From positions 1 to 37,233 of the forward strand of contig VBHO01000146.1 in NCBI GenBank assembly GCA_005882045.1: a stretch of 37,233 nucleotides of DNA, written 5' to 3'. The translations under genes and the position numbers were made by a program. The notes beneath the pieces are model-generated. The model had not been told where the DNA came from, did not search any database, and was given only the letters and a program-made list of their open reading frames with translations. This DNA is from Chloroflexota bacterium. Its GTDB lineage: Bacteria > Chloroflexota > Dormibacteria > CF-121. Of this stretch, positions 29,259 through 32,566 are shown piece by piece; position 1 is the first letter of the stretch, and each line of letters begins with the position of its first letter.

Positions 29259-30125
29259 TCATCCCGCCATCGCCAGCGGCTCTTGCCCAGCGGGGTAGTT
29301 GACCTTGGCGCTGAAGCGATAGCCGACACCACGCTTGGTTTGGATGTAGACCGGTTTGCTGGGGTTGGGCTCGATCTTGCTGCGTAGGCGCGAGATGTGC
29401 ACCCGCAGCCCCTCTTCGTAGGCTTCCTCGTCACCGGCCCATGCCTTGGCCAGCAGGGTCTCGTTGGTGACGACGCGGCCGGCGTTGCGGACGAGGAGGA
29501 AGAGCAGCTTGGACTCGGTTGGCGTCAGGGTAACCTGCTGGCCCTTGACGCGAGCCCAGTGCTGCACGAAGTTGATCTGCAGATCCTGATCGATGACGAC
29601 TTCCGGCTGCTCGACGCCGGCGGACTCGCCGTAGCGGCGCAGCACGCGCTGCACGCGGGCGACGAGCTCGTCCTTTTCAAACGGTTTGACGATGTAATCC
29701 TCGGCGTACATCTGGAGGCCCTCGACCTTGCTCACGACGGCCGCGACCGCGCTCAGGATGACGATCGGGACATCGAGGTGGCTCTTGATGCGGCGGCACA
29801 GTTCGAAGCCGTCCATCTCCGGCATCATCAGGTCGACGACGACCAGGTGCGGAATTCCCTCGTGGAGTTTGCGCAGCGCTTCGGGACCACTACCGGCGGT
29901 CATGACCTCGTAGCCGGCGTGCTCGAGGATCCGCTTGAGGATCTCGCGCGCCATCGCATCGTCGTCGACGATCAGAATCCGGTACCGGTTGACGATGTTA
30001 AACCCCTCTCTTCCGGCGGCCAGTGCACGTCGCGCTGCCGACCGGCCACCATGGATTTGGACCTGCGGCTGCTGGCTCAGGTCCGACTGGAGAGCCGGCA
30101 AAGGTATATGGCCCTCGTCATGCAT
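29259..30125 (-). CDS. OmpR/PhoB-family response regulator
   Basis: A receiver followed by a winged helix. Receiver: RILIVDDDAMARE, phospho-Asp in VVVDLMMPEMDGFE, Thr position Ser in VILSAVAAVV, Lys in YIVKPFEK. The C-terminal DNA-binding domain has LTPTESKLLFLLVRNAGRV, VHISRLRSKIEP and the wing TKRGVGYRF. From ATG 30125 it has 288 residues, but the first 43 are unlike any receiver and homology begins only at about codon 45. No ATG, GTG or TTG exists near there (TTG at 30101 at best); GAGAGGGG sits 6 bases before an ATC at 29996. The true start is therefore open. It is a plausible transcriptional output of the adjacent kinase cluster. Confidence 0.9.
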   Translation of the reverse strand: MHDEGHIPLPALQSDLSQQPQVQIHGGRSAARRALAAGREGFNIVNRYRILIVDDDAMAREILKRILEHAGYEVMTAGSGPEALRKLHEGIPHLVVVDLMMPEMDGFELCRRIKSHLDVPIVILSAVAAVVSKVEGLQMYAEDYIVKPFEKDELVARVQRVLRRYGESAGVEQPEVVIDQDLQINFVQHWARVKGQQVTLTPTESKLLFLLVRNAGRVVTNETLLAKAWAGDEEAYEEGLRVHISRLRSKIEPNPSKPVYIQTKRGVGYRFSAKVNYPAGQEPLAMAG

Positions 30126-30489: not shown

Positions 30490-31002
30490 GTGAGCCTGAG
30501 CACCCTCTACCTGCGGCTGCGCTACCGGCGGCACGGTTTCGGTCCGGGCTTTGAGGGACCGTGGCGGCTCCGCATCCGCGGCCCCGGCCGGGTCACCTTT
30601 GGCCGCAACGTCCGGGTGCGCAACGGCTCCGGTCGCACCGCGCTCCTGACCTTCGCGTCGGATGCCCGGATCGACATCGGGGATCGGGTGGAAATCGACG
30701 GCGCCGGGCTGATGGCGGCCAGCGTCATCGAGGTGGGCGACGACGCCATCCTCGGGCCGTGCCTGGTGGTCGACACCGATTTTCACGCCGTCGGTCCCAC
30801 CCGACGACAGGAGGGCGCGCCTGGTACTCGACGGCCCATCCGCATCGGACCCACCGCCTGGGTCCAGGGGAAGGCCACCATCCTCAAAGGGGTATCGGTG
30901 GGGGAGGGGGCCGTCGTTCGCTGGGGTGCGCTGGTCGCCGCGGACGTCGCGCCGGGCGCGGTCGTCGTGGGGAATCCGGCAGTAGAAGTGCGCGAGCGCT
31001 AG
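30490..31002 (+). CDS. Hexapeptide-repeat acyltransferase (left-handed beta-helix)
   Basis: A 170-residue LbetaH-type acetyltransferase-like protein with imperfect hexapeptide turns: VTFGRNVRVRNG, ARIDIGDRVEIDGAG, SVIEVGDDAILGPCLVV, then PIRIGPTAWVQGKATILKGV and VSVGEGAVVRWGALVAADV, ending GAVVVGNPAVEV. The histidine in DTDFHAVG is the likely catalytic base. Such proteins acetylate sugars or surface polysaccharides. The GTG at 30490 lies 15 bases after the tRNA, so the gene may share its promoter. It ends 10 bp before the convergent Flp pilin gene. Confidence 0.87.
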   Translation: MSLSTLYLRLRYRRHGFGPGFEGPWRLRIRGPGRVTFGRNVRVRNGSGRTALLTFASDARIDIGDRVEIDGAGLMAASVIEVGDDAILGPCLVVDTDFHAVGPTRRQEGAPGTRRPIRIGPTAWVQGKATILKGVSVGEGAVVRWGALVAADVAPGAVVVGNPAVEVRER

Positions 31003-31012
31003 CGAGCGAGGC

Positions 31013-31201
31013 TCAGGCGCCGACGACGGCGCCCTGGATGTTGCAGTAGGTGTTGCGCACCTGGTTGCCCAGGACGATCAGGGTCACAAGGATGACGATG
31101 ACCACCAGGCACATGATCAGCGAGTACTCGACCAGCGCCTGGCCGCGTTCGCTCTCCCAGCCCATAAGAGCCCGGATCCGGGACGCGAGGATGGTGATCA
31201 T
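31013..31201 (-). CDS. Flp-family type IVb pilin
   Basis: A 62-residue prepilin. A basic leader (ILASRIRALMGWESERG) is followed by the processing site and hydrophobic helix G-QALVEYSLIMCLVVIVILV, with the diagnostic Glu at position 5 of the mature protein (QALVE) and Tyr next to it. The TadV-type peptidase would cleave after Gly. No tad assembly genes are in view. ATG 31201; TATAAC (31255-31250, minus) would give a leader of about 40 nt. The two microprotein genes lie upstream on the same strand. Confidence 0.9.
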   Translation of the reverse strand: MITILASRIRALMGWESERGQALVEYSLIMCLVVIVILVTLIVLGNQVRNTYCNIQGAVVGA

Positions 31202-31348
31202 TGCTTGCTCTTACTCGGCCTGGCGATCGCCGCCTTTCGAGTATGAGGGTTATAACGAGGGACCGGCCACCGAACAGACGCGTCGTGCCACGATCGTGTC
31301 GAGATTGTGACCGATGCCGGCGACTCGGTCGGAGGCCGATCGAATCGG

Positions 31349-31489
31349 CTAACGGGCGCTCGAACGTTGGACGAGGTAGGTGACGACCGCCAGGTACTCT
31401 TCCGAGTCGGCGGATCCCACCCAGCGGGTATCCTCGTTGGTGCGGCCGAAGAGGGCGAAGAGTTCGCTCAAGGTCAGCTTTTCAGACAT
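31349..31489 (-). CDS. 46-residue microprotein, paralogue of the gene at 31557
   Basis: Too short for usual gene finders. From ATG 31489 it reads MSEKLTLSELFALFGR, then EDTRWVGSADSEEYLAVV and a tail YLVQRSSAR. Over 42 aligned residues about 31 match the neighbour at 31557, including ALFGR, EDTRWV, SAD and EYLAVV. Conservation of protein sequence between two copies strongly supports translation. It is helical, without signal or membrane segment. An extended -10 (TGTTATATT) precedes it, giving a short leader. No family is recognised; association with the Flp pilin downstream (147 bp) is only positional. Confidence 0.82.
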   Translation of the reverse strand: MSEKLTLSELFALFGRTNEDTRWVGSADSEEYLAVVTYLVQRSSAR

Positions 31490-31509
31490 TTGATACCTAA
31501 CCGGTAGCT

Positions 31510-31518
31510 AATATAACA
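31510..31518 (-). promoter_or_regulatory. Extended -10 promoter of the 46-residue microprotein gene
   Basis: TGTTATATT on the minus strand (TG-n-TATATT) lies in an unusually AT-rich patch, 20 bases before the ATG at 31489. No strong -35 is needed for this promoter type. Confidence 0.55.
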
Positions 31519-31556
31519 CACATACTATCACAAGAGAGAGGCCGGGGAAAGAGGGG

Positions 31557-31706
31557 TTATCGGGCGTTGTTCCGCTGAACTAGATAAAGGACAACGGCCA
31601 GGTATTCTTGCGAATCCGCCGAGGCGACCCAACGGGTGTCCTCCGAATGGCGGCCGAATAGGGTGAAAACGTCCGACATTGTGAGTCGCTGGGGTTCGTC
31701 CAACAT
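31557..31706 (-). CDS. 49-residue microprotein, paralogue of the gene at 31349
   Basis: From ATG 31706 it reads MLDEPQRLTMSDVFTLFGR, then SEDTRWVASADSQEYLAVV and YLVQRNNAR. Alignment with its neighbour starts two residues after the ATG of that copy, which supports this start over the longer open frame (to 31811) or ATG 31679. No clear ribosome site is visible. The two genes are separated by 67 bp holding a promoter, so each copy may be regulated independently. It is divergent from the zinc metallopeptidase gene across a perfect palindrome. Function unknown. Confidence 0.8.
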   Translation of the reverse strand: MLDEPQRLTMSDVFTLFGRHSEDTRWVASADSQEYLAVVLYLVQRNNAR

Positions 31707-31762
31707 GTTTTCTGGGGCACCCGGGCCCCGATGAGGGTGAAACGACCCGCCTCGCGGGATCC

Positions 31763-31779
31763 TTTCACGCAGCGTGAAA
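31763..31779. promoter_or_regulatory. Perfect palindrome TTTCACGC-A-GCGTGAAA, candidate operator
   Basis: Two 8-base arms around one base lie in the 140-bp divergent gap between the microprotein gene and the metallopeptidase gene. A related half-site (GGTGAAAC) occurs at 31736-31743. The form is typical of a dimeric repressor site; the regulator is unknown. Confidence 0.6.
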
Positions 31780-31846
31780 AGATGGGCACGGCCCGGCAGC
31801 GGTTCATCCACGAAGCTGCGGGGTTGCCGACGGGGAGGCGGATCAG

Positions 31847-32566
31847 ATGTTCTTGTACTGGAATTGGGGCTACTTTCTGTACGTCGCGCTGCCCATCATG
31901 GTGCTGGGCTTCATTGCGAGCAGCTGGGTCAAGCGCACCTACCAGCGCTACTCCCAGGTTCGCAACGCCAACGGTCTCAGCGGTGTCGACGTCGCCCGTC
32001 GCATCCTGAGCGGCGCCGGTCTGAGCGATGTCACGATCCAGGTGATCGACGGCGAGCTGAGTGACAACTACGACCCCCGCACCAAGACCCTGAATCTCTC
32101 ACGAGACGTCGCCACCGGCACATCCGTGGCGGCGGAGGCGGTGGTCGCCCACGAGATCGGCCATGCGCTGCAAGATCACCAGGGTTTTTTCGCGATGCGG
32201 CTTCGTTCCGGGCTGGTGCCCGCCGCGAACCTGGGCTCGCAGGCCGGTCCGTTGATCGTGATCGCGGGTCTCCTCCTGTCGGTCTTCACCGGAAGCGTCT
32301 TCGGCTTCTACGTTGCCGTGGCCGGGTTGCTCCTTTTCGCGGCGGTCGTCCTCTTCCAACTGATCACAACGCCCGTCGAACTCGACGCGAGTCGCCGCGC
32401 GCTGCGCTTACTCGCCGAGAACGGCGTCATCTATCCCGAGGAACAGCAGGGGGCGCGACGGATGCTACGCGCAGCGGCCTTCACCTACTGGGTAGCACTG
32501 TTCGGCGCCGTCCTGACCTTGCTCTACTACGCCTCACTCGTTTTCGGAAATCGCCGTAGCGACTGA
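31847..32566 (+). CDS. YugP-family membrane zinc metallopeptidase
   Basis: A 239-residue membrane protease. The N-terminal helix (YFLYVALPIMVLGFIASSWV) is followed by a domain with the zinc motif VVAHEIGHALQDH (HEIGH). Two further helices (PLIVIAGLLLSVFTGSVFG, YVAVAGLLLFAAVVLFQLI) lead to the third zinc-ligand region PVELDASRRAL, and a last helix follows. This order is standard for the family. GGGGAGG lies about 7 bases before ATG 31847. It is the first of five forward genes; the rlmN reading frame is open across its 3' end. Confidence 0.92.
   Translation: MFLYWNWGYFLYVALPIMVLGFIASSWVKRTYQRYSQVRNANGLSGVDVARRILSGAGLSDVTIQVIDGELSDNYDPRTKTLNLSRDVATGTSVAAEAVVAHEIGHALQDHQGFFAMRLRSGLVPAANLGSQAGPLIVIAGLLLSVFTGSVFGFYVAVAGLLLFAAVVLFQLITTPVELDASRRALRLLAENGVIYPEEQQGARRMLRAAAFTYWVALFGAVLTLLYYASLVFGNRRSD

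Follow-up and report, generated by a model that had tools for sequence, protein, structure and literature searches.

The window, meaning the whole stretch of 37,233 nucleotides that was analysed, carries on its minus strand two adjacent small genes, referred to here as copy A and copy B (Table 1). Their products are identical at 31 of 42 residues. When the 42 residues of copy B were shuffled 20,000 times, no shuffle reached 31 identities and the maximum was 12. The coordinates, the lengths and the 31-of-42 count given in the initial annotation all proved exact on recheck, and its description of the genes as paralogous microproteins was borne out by these shared residues and by the copies present family-wide. 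As read from the sequence, acidic residues outnumber basic ones in copy A, and a signal or membrane stretch is absent from both proteins. Copy B contains an inner in-frame ATG at position 31679, which would give a 40-aa form. Because the relative G015 has CTG at the position of this ATG, we take the outer start to be the conserved one.

The A/B pair occupies a fixed chromosomal place. B and a Zn_peptidase_2 gene (PF04298, E 9.8e-76) are divergently oriented, and a small pilin-like gene lies downstream of A on the same strand, about 150 bases away. In the window, a gene for an OmpR-type response regulator is found at 29259-30125, 1.2 kb from A. Among the relatives (window not counted), RlmN and a hexapeptide gene are beside the pair in 16/16, the pilin-like gene in 15/16 (no match at E 1e-5 in G015) and the zinc peptidase in 14/16 (not in G002 and G013). 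The metallopeptidase named as a neighbour in the initial annotation is confirmed by these data. Its 'Flp' pilin label rests on the look of the sequence, since the pilin-like gene matches only the Class_IIIsignal model and falls below that model's cut-off (E 0.0092).

Table 1. Coordinates of the microprotein genes and associated elements (positions in the window, or in the named locus where one is given)
Feature	Position	Strand	Basis
Copy A, 46-aa microprotein gene, stop included	31349..31489	-	ORF, orthologues, codon-position pattern, dN/dS
Copy B, 49-aa microprotein gene, stop included	31557..31706	-	ORF within 31557-31811, orthologues, codon-position pattern
B-A gap: conserved promoter-like stretch TTGTGATAGTAT and GGTATCA motif near A start	31490..31556	-	alignment of 16 genomes
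GTGAAAGG-N16-CGTTTCA element upstream of B	31738..31768	-	genome match, genus matches, alignment
Palindrome TTTCACGCTGCGTGAAA, overlaps left part of B upstream element	31763..31779	-	sequence reading and alignment
Second-type (CTG) paralogue	L071:3998-4144, L072:3998-4147, L073:3998-4147, L074:426-575, L075:3998-4153		

In order to evaluate the coding status of both genes, mismatches were compared by codon position in 17 genomes. The mismatch shares at positions 1/2/3 were 0.040/0.024/0.386 for A and 0.054/0.023/0.330 for B, and the median dN/dS was 0.029 for A (132 of 136 pairs usable; highest pair 0.239) and 0.049 for B (129 of 136 pairs usable; highest pair 0.955). The set for B takes in a damaged copy from G003, and in our opinion the misaligned start of this copy explains the 0.955 pair. 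The third-position excess together with the low dN/dS indicates that A and B are proteins under purifying selection. This agrees with the initial annotation, which had argued for selection at the protein level: in both copies the variation at third positions is 6-16 times that at first or second ones. The refuting outcome it had named, with third positions conserved equally or better, was not observed, and strong purifying selection was found instead. Between A and B themselves, 9, 7 and 26 differences fall at codon positions 1, 2 and 3, and the 31 common residues are specified by the same codon in 12 cases and by a different one in 19. Orthologues of copy A in 16 other genomes have identities of 74-98%. 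For the genus and for genera g3 and g4, identity to the window copy is 87-98% for A and 75-92% for the adjoining RlmN; in the most distant genus (G015) the order is reversed, with about 77% for A and 81% for RlmN. Frames are kept across four genera.

In copy B, the third positions of the codons GAT TCG CAA GAA are unchanged in 14/14 genus genomes, unlike those of most other B codons, and a second signal in DNA or RNA may be hidden there. Across the family there is weak covariation between the third bases of the Asp and Glu codons (Fisher p 0.008, over 49 rows that are related to one another).

A search of the window's own genome detected four copies, namely A and B and one each on contigs C100 and C175. 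When 61 genomes (this one and 60 relatives) were searched, 19 matched. They include every genome of the window's family, f1, 18 in number; the nineteenth, G043, gave a weak match to a stretch with a stop inside, which was treated as chance. A profile search likewise matched 18/18 family genomes, each with at least one copy, and copy number ranges from 1 to 5 per genome through scattered paralogues. Intact-frame homologues, which the initial annotation had asked for, are present: A is found in 17/18 family genomes, and B was read in the same 17. Copy A is absent from G009, which is 82% complete and has another paralogue. Copy B lacks its first codons in G003 and has its stop displaced by one codon in G007. 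At L116 (G003:C295:9300-10300) a deletion, either in the real genome or by assembly, has removed the start of B together with the end of its upstream element. Neither the two additional copies in the own genome nor the wider multi-copy family and its restriction to one family had been noted at first.

Similar searches were performed outside the family. Three weak matches, all judged to be chance, were obtained from 92 other genomes of the class. Of 400 genomes of the phylum, 8 in-family ones matched, and the 392 outside the family gave only two weak matches. The matches in G049 and G053 fall in the same NmrA-like gene (E 0.002 and 0.026), that in G103 is a 44-codon frame at a contig edge and that in G295 lies inside a 1091-codon frame; all were treated as chance. 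The NmrA-like oxidoreductase of two sister-family genomes (L082:536-610 and L083:1501-1575) contains FGRGxNPINWVSAADVAEFV, which resembles the microprotein core, probably by chance. A scan of the named genome collection with short conserved patterns, which finds near relatives only, returned 82 stretches, from which 25 relatives were confirmed in 24 loci, all titled 'Chloroflexi bacterium isolate CF_...'. Grassland soil is a source of Chloroflexi genomes of this kind (PMC6784897). The viral contigs gave 46 pattern stretches and no relative, and the plasmids gave no match. On these comparative grounds we consider it almost certain, for both statements jointly, that A and B are protein-coding genes under very strong purifying selection and that their family is confined, as far as searched, to one family of uncultured soil Chloroflexota.

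The initial annotation had assigned A and B to an unknown family, and nothing convincing emerged for either copy from Pfam, NCBIfam, PHROGs or PADLOC. With 23 members as queries, Pfam returned only SpecificRecomb (4 members, E 0.11) and DUF1949 (1 member, E 0.13), neither convincing, NCBIfam returned nothing, and PHROGs and PADLOC gave no convincing family. The A/B proteins represent a new lineage-restricted microprotein family, and such families are common in large catalogues. The FESNov families are described in PMC10849945 as novel, clade-specific gene families of uncultivated taxa, and the features listed there are shared by the microproteins: several species, dN/dS below 0.5, no known domain, one uncultivated clade and conserved context. 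In our data these correspond to occurrence in 18/18 family genomes, median dN/dS of 0.029 and 0.049, and no convincing relative in the 92 other class genomes; the microprotein family differs in having several paralogues per genome. The small-protein families of GMSC, as outlined in PMC11364881, are under 100 aa, mostly without a domain and in more than half of the cases limited to one genus. The microproteins are also under 100 aa and without a domain, but they span four genera.

What sets this family above the ordinary is its level of conservation, its multi-copy layout and a branch with a putative CTG start. Genes of such a size are easily lost in annotation, and yet A is better conserved than the adjoining rRNA methyltransferase gene in most relatives. 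Since all genomes of this uncultured soil lineage carry the family and it was not found elsewhere, it is a good marker of the distinctness of that lineage.

In a tree of 49 rows, the A rows all fall on one side of a branch, as do the B rows (support 94/76), so that the A/B duplication is most likely older than the genera. The copy B of G003 was left out of this tree, which rests on few columns; 18 of its 37 inner branches are open and its finer points are unsafe.

Conserved blocks precede both A and B in an alignment of 16 genomes from which G003 and G009 were left out. The gap from the B stop to the A start is 67 bases in the window and 54-75 bases across 17 genomes, which upholds the earlier claim of a separate upstream region for each gene. 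The TTGTGATAGTAT stretch before A is a putative promoter. In the element upstream of B, GTGAAAGG and CGTTTCA are separated by 15-16 bases, or by 17 in a few genomes. A near-strict pattern of this element has a single match in the window genome, before B, and the strict pattern is found before B in 12/15 genus genomes. In the three others it is altered (G004), deleted (G003) or the locus was not found (G009), and G015, of the most distant genus, does not retain it in this form. The element resembles an ECF-type promoter with its -35/-10 pair or, alternatively, an operator with inverted half-sites, three TTTCAC/GTGAAA. The palindrome TTTCACGCTGCGTGAAA is imperfect in many relatives. A sigma-70 scan of positions 31000-31900 found no consensus promoter. 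Since the elements upstream of A and B differ, the two genes are probably under different control.

The strict pattern has two further matches elsewhere in genus genomes. In G008, a second strict TGAAAGG-N-CGTTTCA match (L103:1501, G008:C135:17693-17722) lies just before a lipoprotein-like frame. An ECF regulon was considered and rejected: a looser pattern occurs at 25 places in 15 genomes, 12 of them at B, and no regulon shows. The 13 other matches are nearly all inside long open frames, and two are, by eye, beside tRNA-like sequence. The control for the looser pattern gave counts of 0; it reads the pattern backwards and is weak.

Most other paralogues adjoin unrelated genes (moaA/rpiB, a kinase, an SPW protein, topoisomerase IB and others). 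The paralogue called type C, found in G010, G012 and G009, starts about 60 bases after a gene for a PAS-GAF-HisKA_3-HATPase kinase, which itself follows a NarL-type response regulator gene in all three genomes; the Pfam domains were determined on the G010 genes only. When this kinase was used as a query against 15 genus genomes, it was found in the same three, which are related to each other, along with two more distant kinases. The nearest paralogues of type C, G000:C100 and G006:C301, have other neighbours and no such kinase. A kinase partner as a general rule was therefore rejected, the cognate kinase being present in only these 3 of 15 genus genomes.

AlphaFold models were built for both proteins. 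In A (34-sequence alignment, mean pLDDT 69.8) helices are predicted at residues 7-13, 18-25 and 29-45, and in B (29-sequence alignment, mean pLDDT 70.3) at residues 10-16, 24-29 and 32-48; with pTM of 0.38 and 0.43, respectively, the confidence is middling. Foldseek matched no solved structure (best E 5.5 and 9.6), VIA-align, run with the A model only, gave no match with Z of 2 or more, and the family profile had no match among PDB sequences at E up to 10. Nine positions are invariant in the 34-sequence alignment (L5, F14, A27, D28, E31, Y32, L33, Y38 and V40). They are spread around most of the long helix, suggesting that several of its sides make contacts.

From their size, their conservation and the one kinase-linked paralogue type, we tentatively propose, as possible rather than probable, that A and B are regulators acting through a binding partner. 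The two genes would be transcribed from separate elements, as the conservation of these suggests, and would be made under different conditions because the elements differ; codon-level selection is what indicates that they are translated. In the predicted fold, of middling confidence, one or two short helices would be packed on the long C-terminal helix, with a block around ADSxEYLAxVxYLVxR. Nearly every face of this helix is conserved, and the protein would for this reason probably exist as a dimer or on a partner. A and B would then be small adaptors that bind and tune a larger regulator, either a sensor kinase, a response regulator or a transcription factor, in the way Sda acts on KinA, and they may compete for, or report to, related partners. 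That the partner is a histidine kinase is quite doubtful. Still more speculative, and improbable as a whole, is a private layer of signalling control made of tiny helical adaptors expanded by duplication, in which each copy would have a dedicated promoter and partner (in one case a histidine kinase operon) and one branch would be made from a conserved CTG start with almost no leader.

Pfam holds a model for Sda, the KinA inhibitor of Bacillus subtilis, and the microproteins match no Pfam or NCBIfam model, neither an Sda-type profile nor that of another small regulator. They resemble Sda in length, in their all-helical build, in having a dedicated upstream region and in that one paralogue type adjoins a kinase gene. 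Sda is described in PMC7430163 as a helical hairpin of 46 aa that binds and inhibits a kinase. Its hairpin has two helices, and three are predicted for A and B (mean pLDDT near 70). The lineage is different, the microproteins are multi-copy and there is no kinase beside A or B themselves. For the identification of a binding partner, the multi-copy layout offers internal comparisons.

Other explanations were weighed against partner binding. A and B might be mini DNA-binding proteins, in which the short helices and the SAD turn form a reduced helix-turn-helix that acts on the conserved upstream elements (TTTCAC/GTGAAA half-sites, TGATA/TATCA) and regulates the genes themselves or their neighbours. 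The three-helix pattern of the models, the conserved palindromic elements adjoining the genes and the weak Foldseek rows, mainly to sigma factor, TetR-type regulators and Lac repressor, are consistent with this, and 'LTVSELLAMFGRTPDETRWV' recalls helices of MerR/Xis type in an unsupported comparison by eye. However, every Foldseek match has an E above 5, VIA-align gave none at Z of 2 or more, and none of the 23 members matched an HTH model at E up to 10 or showed a significant MerR, Xis, TetR or sigma region 4 profile or fold. The long helix opens with the conserved acidic residues D28 and E31, and copy A has more acidic than basic residues. We thus regard DNA binding as unlikely. A role as accessory factors of the neighbouring small pilin or surface system, as an assembly chaperone or pilin partner, would fit with the same-strand pilin-like gene that follows A and is beside the pair in 15/16 relatives. 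It is made improbable by the unrelated neighbours of the other paralogues, by the lack of a signal or membrane stretch in A and B, by the upstream element that each gene has of its own and by the roughly 150 bases from A to the pilin gene.

The two genes are small and adjacent and occur together wherever both could be seen, and A and B might accordingly be the partners of a toxin-antitoxin module or another self-interacting pair. But A and B are homologous to each other, their place is fixed and their inheritance vertical, the other paralogues stand alone, and no match was obtained in viral contigs, plasmids or PADLOC, all of which makes such a pair very improbable. We give next to no credence to a non-coding DNA or RNA element, recently duplicated or conserved, in which the open frame would be due to chance. 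The synonymous codons GAT TCG CAA GAA of B, invariant in 14/14 genus genomes, point in that direction, whereas the folding of A with its leader was no better than that of shuffles (z 0.03) and is of no help to this reading. Non-coding duplication was ruled out by the 6-16 fold third-position excess, by dN/dS near 0.03-0.05 and by the different codons used for 19 of the 31 residues identical between A and B, and frames are kept in four genera.

A second type of paralogue occurs in five genomes, G014, G001, G011, G007 and G017. Its flanking genes in the four that belong to the genus are moaA and rpiB, assigned by Pfam on the G014 genes and by like sequence in the others; its neighbours in G017 differ. 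The mismatches at codon positions 1/2/3 (0.050, 0.010 and 0.182) show a third-position excess, so that this type is coding as well. No in-frame ATG, GTG or TTG was found ahead of its conserved part in the five genomes, and in G017 a stop and a CTG are separated by only four codons. This CTG is the only start codon of translation table 11, which includes CTG, that is kept in 5/5 genomes. A -10-like TACACT or TAGAAT ends 9 bases before it, again in 5/5 genomes. In mycobacteria, CTG failed as a leaderless start in the experiments described in PMC4633059; the second type would therefore either start at CTG behind a very short leader or represent something new. If real, this branch provides a clean natural test of how Chloroflexota can initiate translation in an unusual way.

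At the same loci (L071-L074), a TAGAAT resembling a leaderless promoter lies shortly before the GTG start of rpiB, and this lineage may commonly use leaderless starts. A frame-broken further copy was observed in G007 (L115:595-639, contig C160), with its ADS part and its DEYLTLVTYLVRR part in different frames.
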